Shown here piece by piece: positions 51,880 through 54,057 of a DNA stretch of 64,000 nt. Source of the stretch: Pacificispira spongiicola (GTDB lineage Bacteria > Pseudomonadota > Alphaproteobacteria > UBA8366 > Aestuariispiraceae); assembly GCF_012926505.1 (NCBI RefSeq), contig NZ_JABBNT010000003.1:1-64000 (forward strand), in the 5' to 3' direction. Every line of letters starts with the position of its first letter. Within the stretch, counting starts at the first letter, position 1. The notes beneath the pieces were generated by a model. It ran no database searches and was not told where the DNA came from. It saw only the letters and a list, made by a program, of their open reading frames with translations. Both the position numbers and the translations under genes were made by a program.

Positions 51880-52182
51880 CTACCTTTTTCCATTTTTGGG
51901 CGGGCGGTGACGGCCCAGCTTGTCCGGCGGCTGCTTGCGCACCCAGCGTATGAAGGACTGAATCTCCTCCTCTGCCAGCAAGGCCTCCGGCGACGACAGC
52001 CGCACGGCCAGCGTCGCCTCGTCATACAGCGAATGGATTTTCTTGTGGCAGATCCGGTGCAGCCACGACCAGTCCGTCCCCTTGAACCGCTTCGGCACCC
52101 AATGATGCCGATCCACGGCCTCCCCTTTCACCATGGGACGCCCACACAGGGCACAGGGGCCTAAATCGTTGGTGGATGTCAT
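51880..52182 (-). CDS. Small HNH-nuclease-like protein
   Basis: A 100-residue protein with a CALCGRP zinc-knuckle half, DRHHWVPKRFKG and HRICHKKIHSLY, the order expected for an HNH/treble-clef nuclease (first histidine pair, then CHxxIH). A lysine-rich tail follows. It lies 28 bp beyond the tRNA-Leu 3' repeat, and a decayed second copy of its start occurs at 53.2 kb. Free-standing HNH proteins can be nicking or restriction-type nucleases; the role here is unknown. Confidence 0.78.
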   Translation of the reverse strand: MTSTNDLGPCALCGRPMVKGEAVDRHHWVPKRFKGTDWSWLHRICHKKIHSLYDEATLAVRLSSPEALLAEEEIQSFIRWVRKQPPDKLGRHRPPKNGKR

Positions 52183-52210: not shown

Positions 52211-52267
52211 TTGGTGCGGGCGGCCGGGCTCGAACCGGCACGATCAAGGATCGAGGGATTTTAAGTC
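52211..52267. repeat. Attachment-site-like direct repeat: 3' part of tRNA-Leu(TAA)
   Basis: These 57 bases match 53971-54027 with one mismatch (52248). The copy runs from one base past CCA through the T-arm, variable arm and anticodon to GACTT, then homology stops. It is a tRNA fragment, not a gene, and forms the far end of a 1.76-kb segment bounded by the intact tRNA. That is the geometry of tRNA-targeted integration. Confidence 0.85.
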
Positions 52268-52370
52268 TGCAGCAATTGCACAAATTTCCAGTAAACCTGC
52301 GGCCTTCAGACTAGTACCGCCGTCAAAAATTGAGCTGGTAGCAACGTCACTTGCAACATTGCGATAAACT

Positions 52371-53000
52371 TCATTCGTCCGGCACGGCTTCCCTTGCGTT
52401 TTGAATACCGCGCTCGATTTTTGCGATCAGTACAAACAGGAAATTTGCAAGAGCCTCGGCAAACTCGACCGACTGAACCGCCTCATCATGAGACACATGC
52501 GGTCGATCCTCATCAGCATGCCGAGGACGATTCGATCCAAGCCGAACTTCGTGAGCCCATTCTCCCATCGCCTCGGTCAACAAGTGATCGGCTACGGCTT
52601 GGTCAATGCGGATATAAAGTGAACCATCTCGATACCCCTTCTCTTTGAGCATTGCGTCGACGGCACTACCGGCCATAACTGCTGCCGCATCAGGCGCATG
52701 CAGAGTTTCATAAGATTGTTGGAGGAACTGTCTAGCGACAGCTGGTATGTCTTCATGGGCCGTTTTTGGAGATGGAAATAGGTCCAGCACAAGAGGCTCA
52801 CCGGACGTGTCACCTGGATATCCTTTTGCAGAAACCGCATTTCCACAAGAGGTGCACCTGTACAGAGCCCATCTGCTCATTGGGCCAAGAGTACTCCTAT
52901 GGAGTAAATCGTCCGAGCGCCAGACCCTAATAAGTACGGGATGAGCAACTCCACAATGAGGGCATCGCGGAACATCGTCGAGTTGTTGACCCAGTCTCAT
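52371..53000 (-). CDS. Zinc-ribbon / DUF4145-like protein
   Basis: A 209-residue soluble protein. The N-terminus has a four-cysteine zinc ribbon (PRCPHCG and YRCTSCGNAV). The C-terminal half (about 80-205) is helical with features of DUF4145 (ARQFLQQSYETLHAPDAAAV, then AGSAVDAMLKEKGY). DUF4145 occurs alone and fused to restriction-enzyme subunits, and its activity is unknown. ATG 53000 has AAGGA ten bases upstream, inside a perfect AAGGATATCCTT palindrome. It is an accessory gene between tRNA fragments. Confidence 0.65.
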   Translation of the reverse strand: MRLGQQLDDVPRCPHCGVAHPVLIRVWRSDDLLHRSTLGPMSRWALYRCTSCGNAVSAKGYPGDTSGEPLVLDLFPSPKTAHEDIPAVARQFLQQSYETLHAPDAAAVMAGSAVDAMLKEKGYRDGSLYIRIDQAVADHLLTEAMGEWAHEVRLGSNRPRHADEDRPHVSHDEAVQSVEFAEALANFLFVLIAKIERGIQNAREAVPDE

Positions 53001-53021
53001 AAAAGGATATCCTTCAAGTGT

Positions 53022-53069
53022 TGTGGGTGGCCGGACTCGAACCGGCATAGACAAAGCCCGAGGGACTTT
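53022..53069 (-). pseudogene. 3' exon of a second tRNA-Leu (remnant)
   Basis: On the minus strand the sequence aligns base for base with the 3' part of the intact tRNA-Leu: AAAG then TCCCT anticodon stem, a long variable arm, T-arm GCCGG-TTCGAGT-CCGGC, acceptor CACCCAC and discriminator A. The CCA is altered to ACA. No 5' half follows the usual way; it is preceded by an intron remnant ending in G. The first bases would be positions 35-38, so the anticodon was NAA (Leu). Confidence 0.8.
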
Positions 53070-53215
53070 CTTCAAACTATAGCTTTGGCTGCCGCCCATG
53101 CGGGCTTTGTGCGCTGGACAATGCCTTCACCGTAGCGTAGCTGCCTTAGGTGCTGCCCGTCTAGTCTCTACACCTTCCCCGTGCCGGGCTTTGCCCGGAA
53201 CGCAATATTAGAGAT
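53070..53215 (-). ncRNA. Group I intron, 3' half only (tRNA-type, degenerate)
   Basis: On the minus strand the R element region GTGTAGAGACTAGACGG (53157-53173) and the S element GAAGGCATTGTCC (53116-53128) occur in the right order, with AGCACCTAAGGC between them. This closely matches my recollection of bacterial tRNA introns such as that of Azoarcus. The intron ends in G (53070) directly before the tRNA-Leu 3' exon at the N34/A35 boundary. The P7 pairing has one mismatch (TTGTC where TAGTC is expected). The 5' core (P3-P5) and the 5' exon are missing, so it cannot splice. Confidence 0.75.
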
Positions 53216-53218
53216 TTC

Positions 53219-53262
53219 CCCGTTCACCAGCACTCGCCCGCCGAGAGGACAGGGGCCTAACA
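53219..53262 (-). pseudogene. Decayed start of a second HNH-like gene
   Basis: On the minus strand, after a one-base shift, the codons give LGPCPLGGRVLVNG, matching LGPCALCGRPMVKG near the start of the HNH gene at 51880-52182. The nucleotides share a run ACAGGGGCCTAA (plus-strand sense). It is cut off where the intron remnant begins, so only about 14 codons survive. Confidence 0.6.
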
Positions 53263-53270
53263 TCGTCTGT

Positions 53271-53918
53271 TCATTTACCAAACGCAGCAGAAACAAACTT
53301 TCTGCCTAGTGCGTTGATTGAATAATATGTTCCCGGGTCGATTGAGGAGAATGTGTTATAGTCTTGCTCCGCTTCACTCACTAGCCCAAGAGCCGCCAAA
53401 TATGGCAACGCATCTCCTTTCAGCTTTTCTTCGTCGTTTACGCCGGAAATATAAACTAGGTCAGGAAAGTGGGCTCTATCAACAATCATCGAAAATCGTC
53501 TTAACTCATCGCCTGTTATTCTGTTCTCTATTCTAGCCTTGTAAAGGCGCCCGATAATCGGAGGCTTGTCGAGGTCATCAAGCCGATCAATTAGCATCAT
53601 TAAAGCAGCGCCAGCCTTTGCCCGAGTGCCAGAATCTTCTTCGAGCTCCCTGACAAATTTAATTCGCTTCTCCTGACTAACACTTTGAAGTTCATTCAAA
53701 AATGACGCGATTTTTTTCAGAAAAAGCCTGTCACGAATCGAGACTCCAGCACCAAGAATTCTCGCTATATTGCCAAAGACAGGTATCGCGGCAATCAGTT
53801 CATTTTTAGTTACTGCATCCAACCCAACCTCAGCTAGGTCCACAGCTATATCTTTAATATTAGACCTCGCAACAGAATCTATAAGCGCTACTTCTACAGT
53901 TTTCTCTTCTTCCGACAC
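53271..53918 (-). CDS. Orphan hypothetical protein in tRNA-Leu island
   Basis: A 215-residue protein starting with GTG at 53918, with a strong AGGAGG seven bases upstream. It has no signal peptide. There is one moderately hydrophobic stretch (AAIPVFGNIARILGAGVSI near residues 43-61), a helical charged middle, and a C-terminal part ending GTYYSINALGRKFVSAAFGK, which could be a winged-helix-like end. Base composition is clearly more AT-rich than the flanks (ATA, TTA and AGA codons are frequent), a sign of transfer. I do not recognise the family. It lies between an intact tRNA-Leu and the intron remnant. Confidence 0.75.
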   Translation of the reverse strand: MSEEEKTVEVALIDSVARSNIKDIAVDLAEVGLDAVTKNELIAAIPVFGNIARILGAGVSIRDRLFLKKIASFLNELQSVSQEKRIKFVRELEEDSGTRAKAGAALMMLIDRLDDLDKPPIIGRLYKARIENRITGDELRRFSMIVDRAHFPDLVYISGVNDEEKLKGDALPYLAALGLVSEAEQDYNTFSSIDPGTYYSINALGRKFVSAAFGK

Positions 53919-53970
53919 ACCTATCCTCCTTCAATAAAATCACCGGATTGATGTATAAGGATCGTTCAAA

Positions 53971-54027
53971 TTGGTGCGGGCGGCCGGGCTCGAACCGGCA
54001 CGATCAAAGATCGAGGGATTTTAAGTC
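53971..54027. repeat. Attachment-site-like direct repeat inside intact tRNA-Leu
   Basis: This is the partner of 52211-52267 (56 of 57 identical). It covers the tRNA 3' end through the anticodon. If an element inserted here, this end restored the functional tRNA. Confidence 0.85.
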
Positions 54028-54057
54028 CCTTGCGTCTACCAATTCCGCCACGCCCGC
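53972..54057 (-). tRNA. tRNA-Leu (anticodon TAA)
   Basis: A complete 86-nt class II tRNA with acceptor GCGGGCG/CGCCCGC, anticodon stem AGGGA/TCCCT with loop CTTAAAA (TAA), a long variable arm CGATCTTTGATCGT, T-arm GCCGG-TTCGAGC-CCGGC and encoded CCA. Unlike the remnant downstream, it has no intron. Confidence 0.97.

Follow-up and report, generated by a model that had tools for sequence, protein, structure and literature searches.

How did about 1.7 kb of DNA carrying two accessory genes come to lie between two copies of the 3' end of a single tRNA gene? This question is raised by positions 52211-54057 of contig NZ_JABBNT010000003.1 of Pacificispira spongiicola, which were analysed within the first 64,000 nucleotides (nt) of that contig, hereafter the window. 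The original prediction interpreted the stretch as a small island inserted at the 3' end of a tRNA-Leu(TAA) gene and considered a decayed element, a satellite moved by the integrase of another element or a cargo hotspot. The comparison with related genomes reported here identified the stretch as an insertion at a tRNA integration hotspot, and it is probably the decayed composite scar of at least two integrations at the tRNA-Leu(UAA) gene.

The flanking repeat was confirmed by a repeat finder, according to which the two outer 57-nt 3' ends of tRNA-Leu(TAA) are 98% identical, with one mismatch in 57 positions. A third tRNA-Leu-like end (68%), absent from the original prediction, was detected by the same means at 53018-53074. 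Read along the minus strand, the locus consists of the tRNA-Leu(TAA) gene, gene A, a short piece (scrap) of an HNH gene, the 3' part of a tRNA-Leu gene with an intron, gene B, the displaced 57-nt tRNA 3' end and the HNH gene itself; genes A and B are each located directly downstream of a tRNA end and in the same orientation. The statement that two genes but no integrase are present also held, as neither gene A nor gene B matched an integrase and none of the four PF00589 matches of the whole genome falls within the island. The DNA inside the island is richer in AT, as had been noted, with a GC content in 300-nt windows of 0.40-0.56 versus 0.57-0.71 in the flanks, and the GC content at third codon positions (GC3) is 0.39 in gene A and 0.44 in gene B versus 0.79-0.85 in five neighbouring genes. 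The variable arm of the complete tRNA gene differs in one base from the distal copy, which has at this position the same base as two relatives of the genus (G002 and G004). The 3' half of the complete tRNA-Leu gene was probably supplied by the inserted DNA, and the distal copy is probably the displaced native 3' end.

The interval between tRNA-Leu(TAA) and the HNH gene was then compared across relatives, as had been suggested for checking the prediction. An empty site with a single tRNA-Leu copy was found in four of the five genus relatives (G001, G002, G003 and G004). The single tRNA-Leu(taa) gene is followed by the HNH gene within about 80 nt in G002 and G004, and in G001 and G003 by a flank that in the fifth relative, G005, starts about 540 nt past the distal copy; no HNH match was obtained in G001, G003 and G005. 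The same tRNA-Leu gene of G005 harbours an integrase-bearing, prophage-like element, whose integrase (395 aa; PF00589, 1.6e-31) ends 35 nt from the tRNA-Leu gene; genes for a Toprim primase and an AAA_25 protein are present on the side of the integrase. The distal 59-nt copy of the tRNA 3' end is located on a different contig of G005, and the element comprises at least 15 kb if both contig ends form one element. In the window and in G005, the blocks of identity begin at the same point to about one base; this point lies in the anticodon loop and is listed among the crossover classes in the Islander paper (PMC4383910). Since four relatives are empty at this site and one carries different cargo, the locus represents an insertion at an integration hotspot and not old backbone, and an arrangement shared by all relatives, including both repeats, does not exist at this locus. 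Together with the foreign base composition, these data corroborate the predicted insertion at a tRNA 3' end that lacks an integrase. At the family level, about 10.4 kb separate tRNA-Leu(taa) and the HNH gene in G012 (L081, 1943-12366); no distal tRNA copy was reported for this interval, and two of its proteins that were checked showed no Pfam match.

The third tRNA-like end belongs to the decayed remainder of an intron-bearing gene. A covariance model, termed R1, was built from 30 intact tRNA-Leu(taa) copies out of 74 that were usable and matched the window at 53016-53176 over the full length of the model (119.3 bits; expect value (E) 1.5e-37, the E-values of this model being rough). The fragment is identical to locus L308 in 156 of 196 alignment columns. 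A DNA search with positions 53015-53275 yielded matches in 41 of 289 genomes of the class, the own genome included, and the five best non-self matches showed 73-77% identity over about 150-215 nt. With introns allowed, ARAGORN interpreted 18 of 19 retrieved loci as tRNA genes interrupted by about 200-280 nt of intron, among them eight tRNA-Leu(taa) and four tRNA-Arg(cct) genes, and two of eight related loci (L026 and L029) passed the threshold of the Rfam group I intron model RF00028. This model gave no match in the window fragment, either at the gathering threshold or, on the fragment alone, up to E 10. The fragment starts at about intron position 54 and runs on into the 3' exon; a complete, splicing-capable intron between two exons is not present, as the 5' exon and about 53 first intron nucleotides are missing. 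A tRNA-Arg(gcg) gene with a 122-nt intron, called by ARAGORN in the middle region when introns were allowed, was taken as spurious.

The tRNA-Leu(taa) gene is intronless in all five genus relatives, and among 13 family relatives R1 matched strongly only in G011, which contains an intact gene (163.7 bits), the other 12 reaching at most 50.9 bits, a level given by tRNA genes alone. Because all five genus relatives are intronless at this gene, the fragment was probably acquired from outside the genus; a relic that predates the genus is conceivable, whereas a native relic of this lineage is disfavoured by the intronless genus relatives and by the restriction of the intact family gene to G011. Next to the fragment lies the HNH-like piece, whose local score of 40 against the start of the neighbouring HNH gene was the best of 790 window tiles (next best, 31) and was reached by none of 1000 shuffles (maximum, 33), which excludes chance as the source of the similarity. 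The HNH gene itself remained below the cut-offs of both families in question (Pfam HNH, 17.6 bits, cut-off 21.4; NCBIfam HlpB, 72.1 bits, cut-off 130). Hence, the remnants of other sequences can now be specified as the 3' portion of a group I intron, followed by the 3' exon of its tRNA-Leu gene, plus a scrap of an HNH gene. Since both are located inside, the island is composite and not one element. Among the options considered initially, the best fit is to a decayed element that lies at a cargo hotspot, with a satellite moved in trans as a less likely possibility.

A putative history of the locus can be assembled from what was observed: tRNA repeats on both sides, sites that are empty in relatives, a foreign base composition, an integrase in the same tRNA gene of a sister genome and an intron-bearing tRNA end in the interior. 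Mobile DNA would have entered the part of the tRNA gene that extends from the anticodon loop to the CCA end, by an integrase step assumed in analogy to G005, and this insertion would have provided the tRNA gene with a different 3' half and displaced the native one to 52211-52267. At least two modules would have been stacked, one with gene A and the other with gene B preceded by an intron-bearing tRNA-Leu 3' end. The middle fragment would derive from DNA whose tRNA-Leu gene carried a group I intron and would itself probably be a 3' end that was displaced or borne by an attachment site (att). The integrases would have been lost through deletion, and the HNH scrap suggests some shuffling via recombination or deletion. 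The rarity of both genes in the class and their relatedness to phage or plasmid genes fit this history, as do the 5'-less fragments near integrases described below. Several observations weigh against such a history of stacked integrations: neither an integrase nor a remnant of one was detected within the island, which leaves the agent itself unseen; the left edge of the middle fragment is not an att junction, because the first half of the intron is missing; and either unit alone was not encountered in any strain. Moreover, the HNH scrap is not explained by simple tandem integration and therefore also indicates deletion or homologous recombination.

Fragments comparable to that of the window were collected from other genomes. 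A scan with the exact 27-nt intron core detected at least 118 stretches in genome contigs and four in viral contigs, and 123 sites were examined, comprising those in the 118 genome stretches (one with two sites), three viral sites and plasmid pUSDA76. ARAGORN called an intron-bearing tRNA at 109 of these sites, with one spurious call in Bradyrhizobium sp. LMTR 3, and none at 14, of which eight are situated at a stretch end (four judged by position only), two contain N gaps, one (L199) has a 5' exon and three (L161, L244 and pUSDA76, L046) lack it. Additionally, an R1 search of 49 genomes and pUSDA76 with strict filters (E <= 1e-20) yielded 59 matches, and three of 15 R1 copies in six multi-copy genomes were found to be without 5' exon, namely those of Afipia (L299), LMTR 3 (L301) and Caulobacter (L309). 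Besides the window, the data thus comprise six records of 5'-less intron-bearing tRNA-Leu genes. Local alignments to intact genes start at intron position 1 in pUSDA76, 19 in LMTR 3, 21 in L244, 23 in L161, 47 in Afipia, 54 in the window and 98 in Caulobacter. The alignment ends at most 3 nt from the CCA end in four of the seven sequences (pUSDA76, Afipia, LMTR 3 and L244) and at -10 in the window, +15 in Caulobacter and -31 in L161.

An integrase or a piece of one is encoded upstream and on the same strand in three of the six records, specifying 145 aa with the N-terminal domain only in pUSDA76 (Phage_int_SAM_3, 2.4e-6), 376 aa in LMTR 3 (PF00589, 1.7e-21) and 465 aa in Caulobacter (PF00589, 3.5e-10), where the gene following the fragment is oppositely oriented. 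Three records also adjoin defence-gene matches. The gene following the fragment of pUSDA76 matched Ppl of PADLOC (9.9e-42), and that of LMTR 3 combines matches to HerA (5.4e-62) and SIR2 (1.4e-34) in one 356-aa frame. This frame, SIR2-like at its beginning and HerA-like towards its end, may have arisen when a deletion fused the two genes of a defence system. In Afipia, 4.6 kb separate the 5'-less copy from an intact intron-bearing tRNA-Leu gene upstream of it; the interval contains genes for a methyltransferase and a restriction protein, both of type III (PADLOC, 1.1e-106 and 2.1e-7), and a weak integrase-like piece (3.8e-4, below cut-off) is present on the other side of the tRNA. Neither an integrase nor a defence gene was recognised in L161 and L244, the lists of open reading frames being judged by eye only. 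The association of 5'-less fragments with integrases and defence genes is suggestive only.

Some further observations concern these and related loci. On Bradyrhizobium elkanii pUSDA76 (L046, 3479-7106) the N-terminal integrase piece abuts the intron start and a TrlF/Ppl-type gene stands after the 3' exon, and the order in LMTR 3 (L312, 6999-10549) is a Dus gene, the integrase gene, the tRNA-Leu intron fragment and the SIR2-like/HerA-like frame. The metagenome-assembled genome of Afipia (L311, G459:C5, 1149-6168) holds five R1 matches, and that of an acidobacterium (L167) contains two complete intron-bearing tRNA genes on the same strand, 3.1 kb apart. The intact intron-bearing tRNA-Leu gene L028 matched 1272 plasmid records, mostly of Enterobacterales; 1265 of these matches cover at least 80% of the gene, nearly all with 60-80% identity. 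In the single plasmid record inspected, NZ_CP135650.1 (L047), which was found with the window query, the match adjoins aac(3)-IId.

A specific mechanism might account for these fragments, although we regard it as doubtful: bacterial elements could use the intron-interrupted tRNA-Leu(UAA) gene as att, with the crossover at or near the junction of 5' exon and intron, carry a segment of about 260 nt made up of intron and 3' exon and deposit it with accessory or defence genes in new genomes. The best single piece of evidence is the junction of pUSDA76 at intron position 1 beside a truncated integrase, and the other starts, from 19 to 98, either reflect decay or speak against a fixed crossover. Under an unlikely alternative, non-autonomous single-gene cassettes, each made up of a gene and a tRNA-Leu 3' end, were moved in trans by the integrase of another element, arranged in tandem in the same orientation and perhaps transcribed from the tRNA promoter. 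The window genes start close behind tRNA ends, and one gene per tRNA end without integrase is seen both in the window and in Bradyrhizobium CSA207 (L198), where a tRNA, a 497-aa gene, a 47-nt copy of the 3' exon and a 415-aa gene follow each other in a window-like layout; the 497-aa product contains a SEC-C motif and resembles PADLOC models only in part, and the 415-aa product has no PADLOC similarity. However, neither a circle nor a trans-acting integrase was identified, the G005 integrase showed only partial matches (26-40%) to integrase-family genes of this genome, of which there are four, and deletion of larger elements would give the same layout, of which only two loci were seen.

Homologous recombination between tRNA-Leu/HNH loci from different strains or species, with deletions, could likewise have brought together gene A, the scrap, the fragment and gene B, any integrase action being older and having taken place elsewhere. 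The HNH scrap and the HNH genes that adjoin tRNA-Leu in three genus genomes are in keeping with this rather improbable course of events, but the island's outer edges fall at the anticodon loop and at the CCA end of the tRNA, as in integrase products, and no donor arrangement was found in 14 family genomes. Least of all can the locus be attributed to old backbone or an assembly artefact, for which the chance is very slight: the genome is a draft of 19 contigs, but the region is located inside a contig of 755,649 nt, GC3 is foreign, and the four empty sites along with the site carrying other cargo rule out old backbone. Stacked integrations followed by decay thus remain the preferred explanation of the locus, the features of which are compiled in Table 1.

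Table 1. Features of the tRNA-Leu(TAA) locus of P. spongiicola (window positions)
Feature	Position	Strand	Basis or remark
Complete intronless tRNA-Leu(TAA)	53972..54057	-	ARAGORN; Rfam tRNA, 58.6 bits
Proximal copy of 57-nt repeat, anticodon loop to CCA end	53971..54027	-	Repeat finder
Gene A, 215 aa, unnamed family with plasmid and phage relatives	53271..53918	-	
Scrap similar to the beginning of the adjacent HNH gene	53217..53260	-	75% over 44 nt
Decayed 3' part of intron-bearing tRNA-Leu gene	53016..53222 (upper end approximate)	-	R1 match 53016-53176
Gene B, 209 aa, four conserved cysteines and DUF4145	52371..53000	-	PF13643, PHROG 1305
Distal copy of 57-nt repeat	52211..52267	-	Repeat finder; HNH gene next, as after the single tRNA in G002 and G004
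HNH gene, flanking backbone in G000, G002 and G004	51880..52182	-	Matches below cut-off

Gene A begins with a GTG start codon behind an AGGAGG-type ribosome-binding site, as judged by eye, and had no family match at cut-off in the Pfam, PADLOC, NCBIfam and PHROG libraries. Only the own genome among 385 genomes of the class contains it, and as a single query it retrieved no relatives from genome contigs or viral contigs. Relatives occur in 42 plasmid records, with 26-34% identity among the 20 matches listed, and one is located between traA and the gene of the type IV coupling protein in three rhizobial plasmids; in two phage records the match ends less than 80 nt from the record end. On Klebsiella plasmid pINF192.5 (L257) the relative of gene A adjoins an FRG-domain gene. 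Eight aligned proteins share ten invariant positions, three of them mutually close. No fold reading was drawn from the structure prediction (mean predicted local distance difference test score, pLDDT, 54.4, from three sequences), and the sequence comparison with solved structures gave nothing usable (best E 0.97).

Gene B starts 16 nt after the middle tRNA end and matched PF13643 (DUF4145; 36.1 bits, cut-off 23.1) and PHROG 1305 (4.9e-19). It is present in five of the 385 class genomes, the own genome included, and has no match on plasmids; relatives with 39-61% identity were found in eight viral contigs, three of which contain an integrase-family match. In L096 (1180-1890) a relative starts about 25 nt after a tRNA-like sequence that was seen by eye and not called by ARAGORN. 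Four cysteines are invariant in nine aligned proteins and probably form a zinc ribbon, zinc-ribbon matches being below cut-off. The model of gene B (mean pLDDT 81.4) has a strand-rich N-terminal and a helical C-terminal half; its fold gave 89 matches in the PDB, none of them at E <= 0.001, with HEPN toxins recurring (best E 0.56), and the sequence search of solved structures yielded nothing usable (best E 0.041). The catalytic R...H motif of HEPN proteins has the spacing Rx4-6H, from which the residues R153, N157 and H161, invariant in the nine proteins, differ in spacing. PADLOC provided no family for gene A or gene B up to E 1. Both are probably accessory genes of prophages or plasmids.

The DUF4145 family has been assigned to the HEPN superfamily, and a large number of HEPN proteins act as RNases in biological conflicts (PMC3710099). 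Gene B exceeds the PF13643 cut-off, and the family is listed with zinc-ribbon fusions and with double-stranded DNA viruses (PMC3710099); gene B differs in being a stand-alone phage-type protein, and its structural matches to HEPN toxins are insignificant. Gene B may act on RNA in phage conflict, a weak inference from DUF4145. The defence function that had been raised for the island genes is no more than plausible, considering the HEPN relationship of gene B and the defence-like cargo at comparable loci.

With regard to known systems, tRNA-targeted islands and their tandem arrays are documented in the Islander database (PMC4383910), and a tandem island pair has been described in a tRNA-Leu gene of Klebsiella (PMC4048246). 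The locus resembles them in its intact tRNA gene with 3' fragments in the same orientation, its crossover class in the anticodon loop and the stacking at one tRNA gene, whereas it is devoid of an integrase, measures 1.8 kb overall and has a middle fragment from an intron-bearing tRNA gene. Because no integrase gene lies between the tRNA and its displaced fragment, it was classed as an island remnant and not as a member of the Islander type. The ends of tRNA-Leu genes thereby appear as places in which to search for small accessory genes without integrase, which are left out by finders that require one.

For Archaea, it has been proposed that an intron-containing attP brings an intron into a tRNA gene (PMC3293823; PMC8371274), and that tRNA introns guard tRNA genes from integration but also travel in attachment sites (PMC3293823). 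Intron-bearing tRNA ends as bacterial att fragments were not described in the titles and abstract openings retrieved by literature searches confined to open-licence papers, and 3' ends with group I introns as displaced att sites in bacteria are possibly new. The fragments pose a bacterial group I version of the archaeal question: if recombination at the exon-intron border is real, introns are cargo and not armour, and attachment sites would spread self-splicing tRNA introns and leave a layered record of past hosts, of which the window would contain one layer. The locus shares with the archaeal model mobile DNA that carries a tRNA sequence with an intron and tRNA fragments left at the insertion; it differs in that the introns there are archaeal tRNA introns, whereas that of the window is a bacterial group I intron, which is dead, and the receiving tRNA gene is still intronless.

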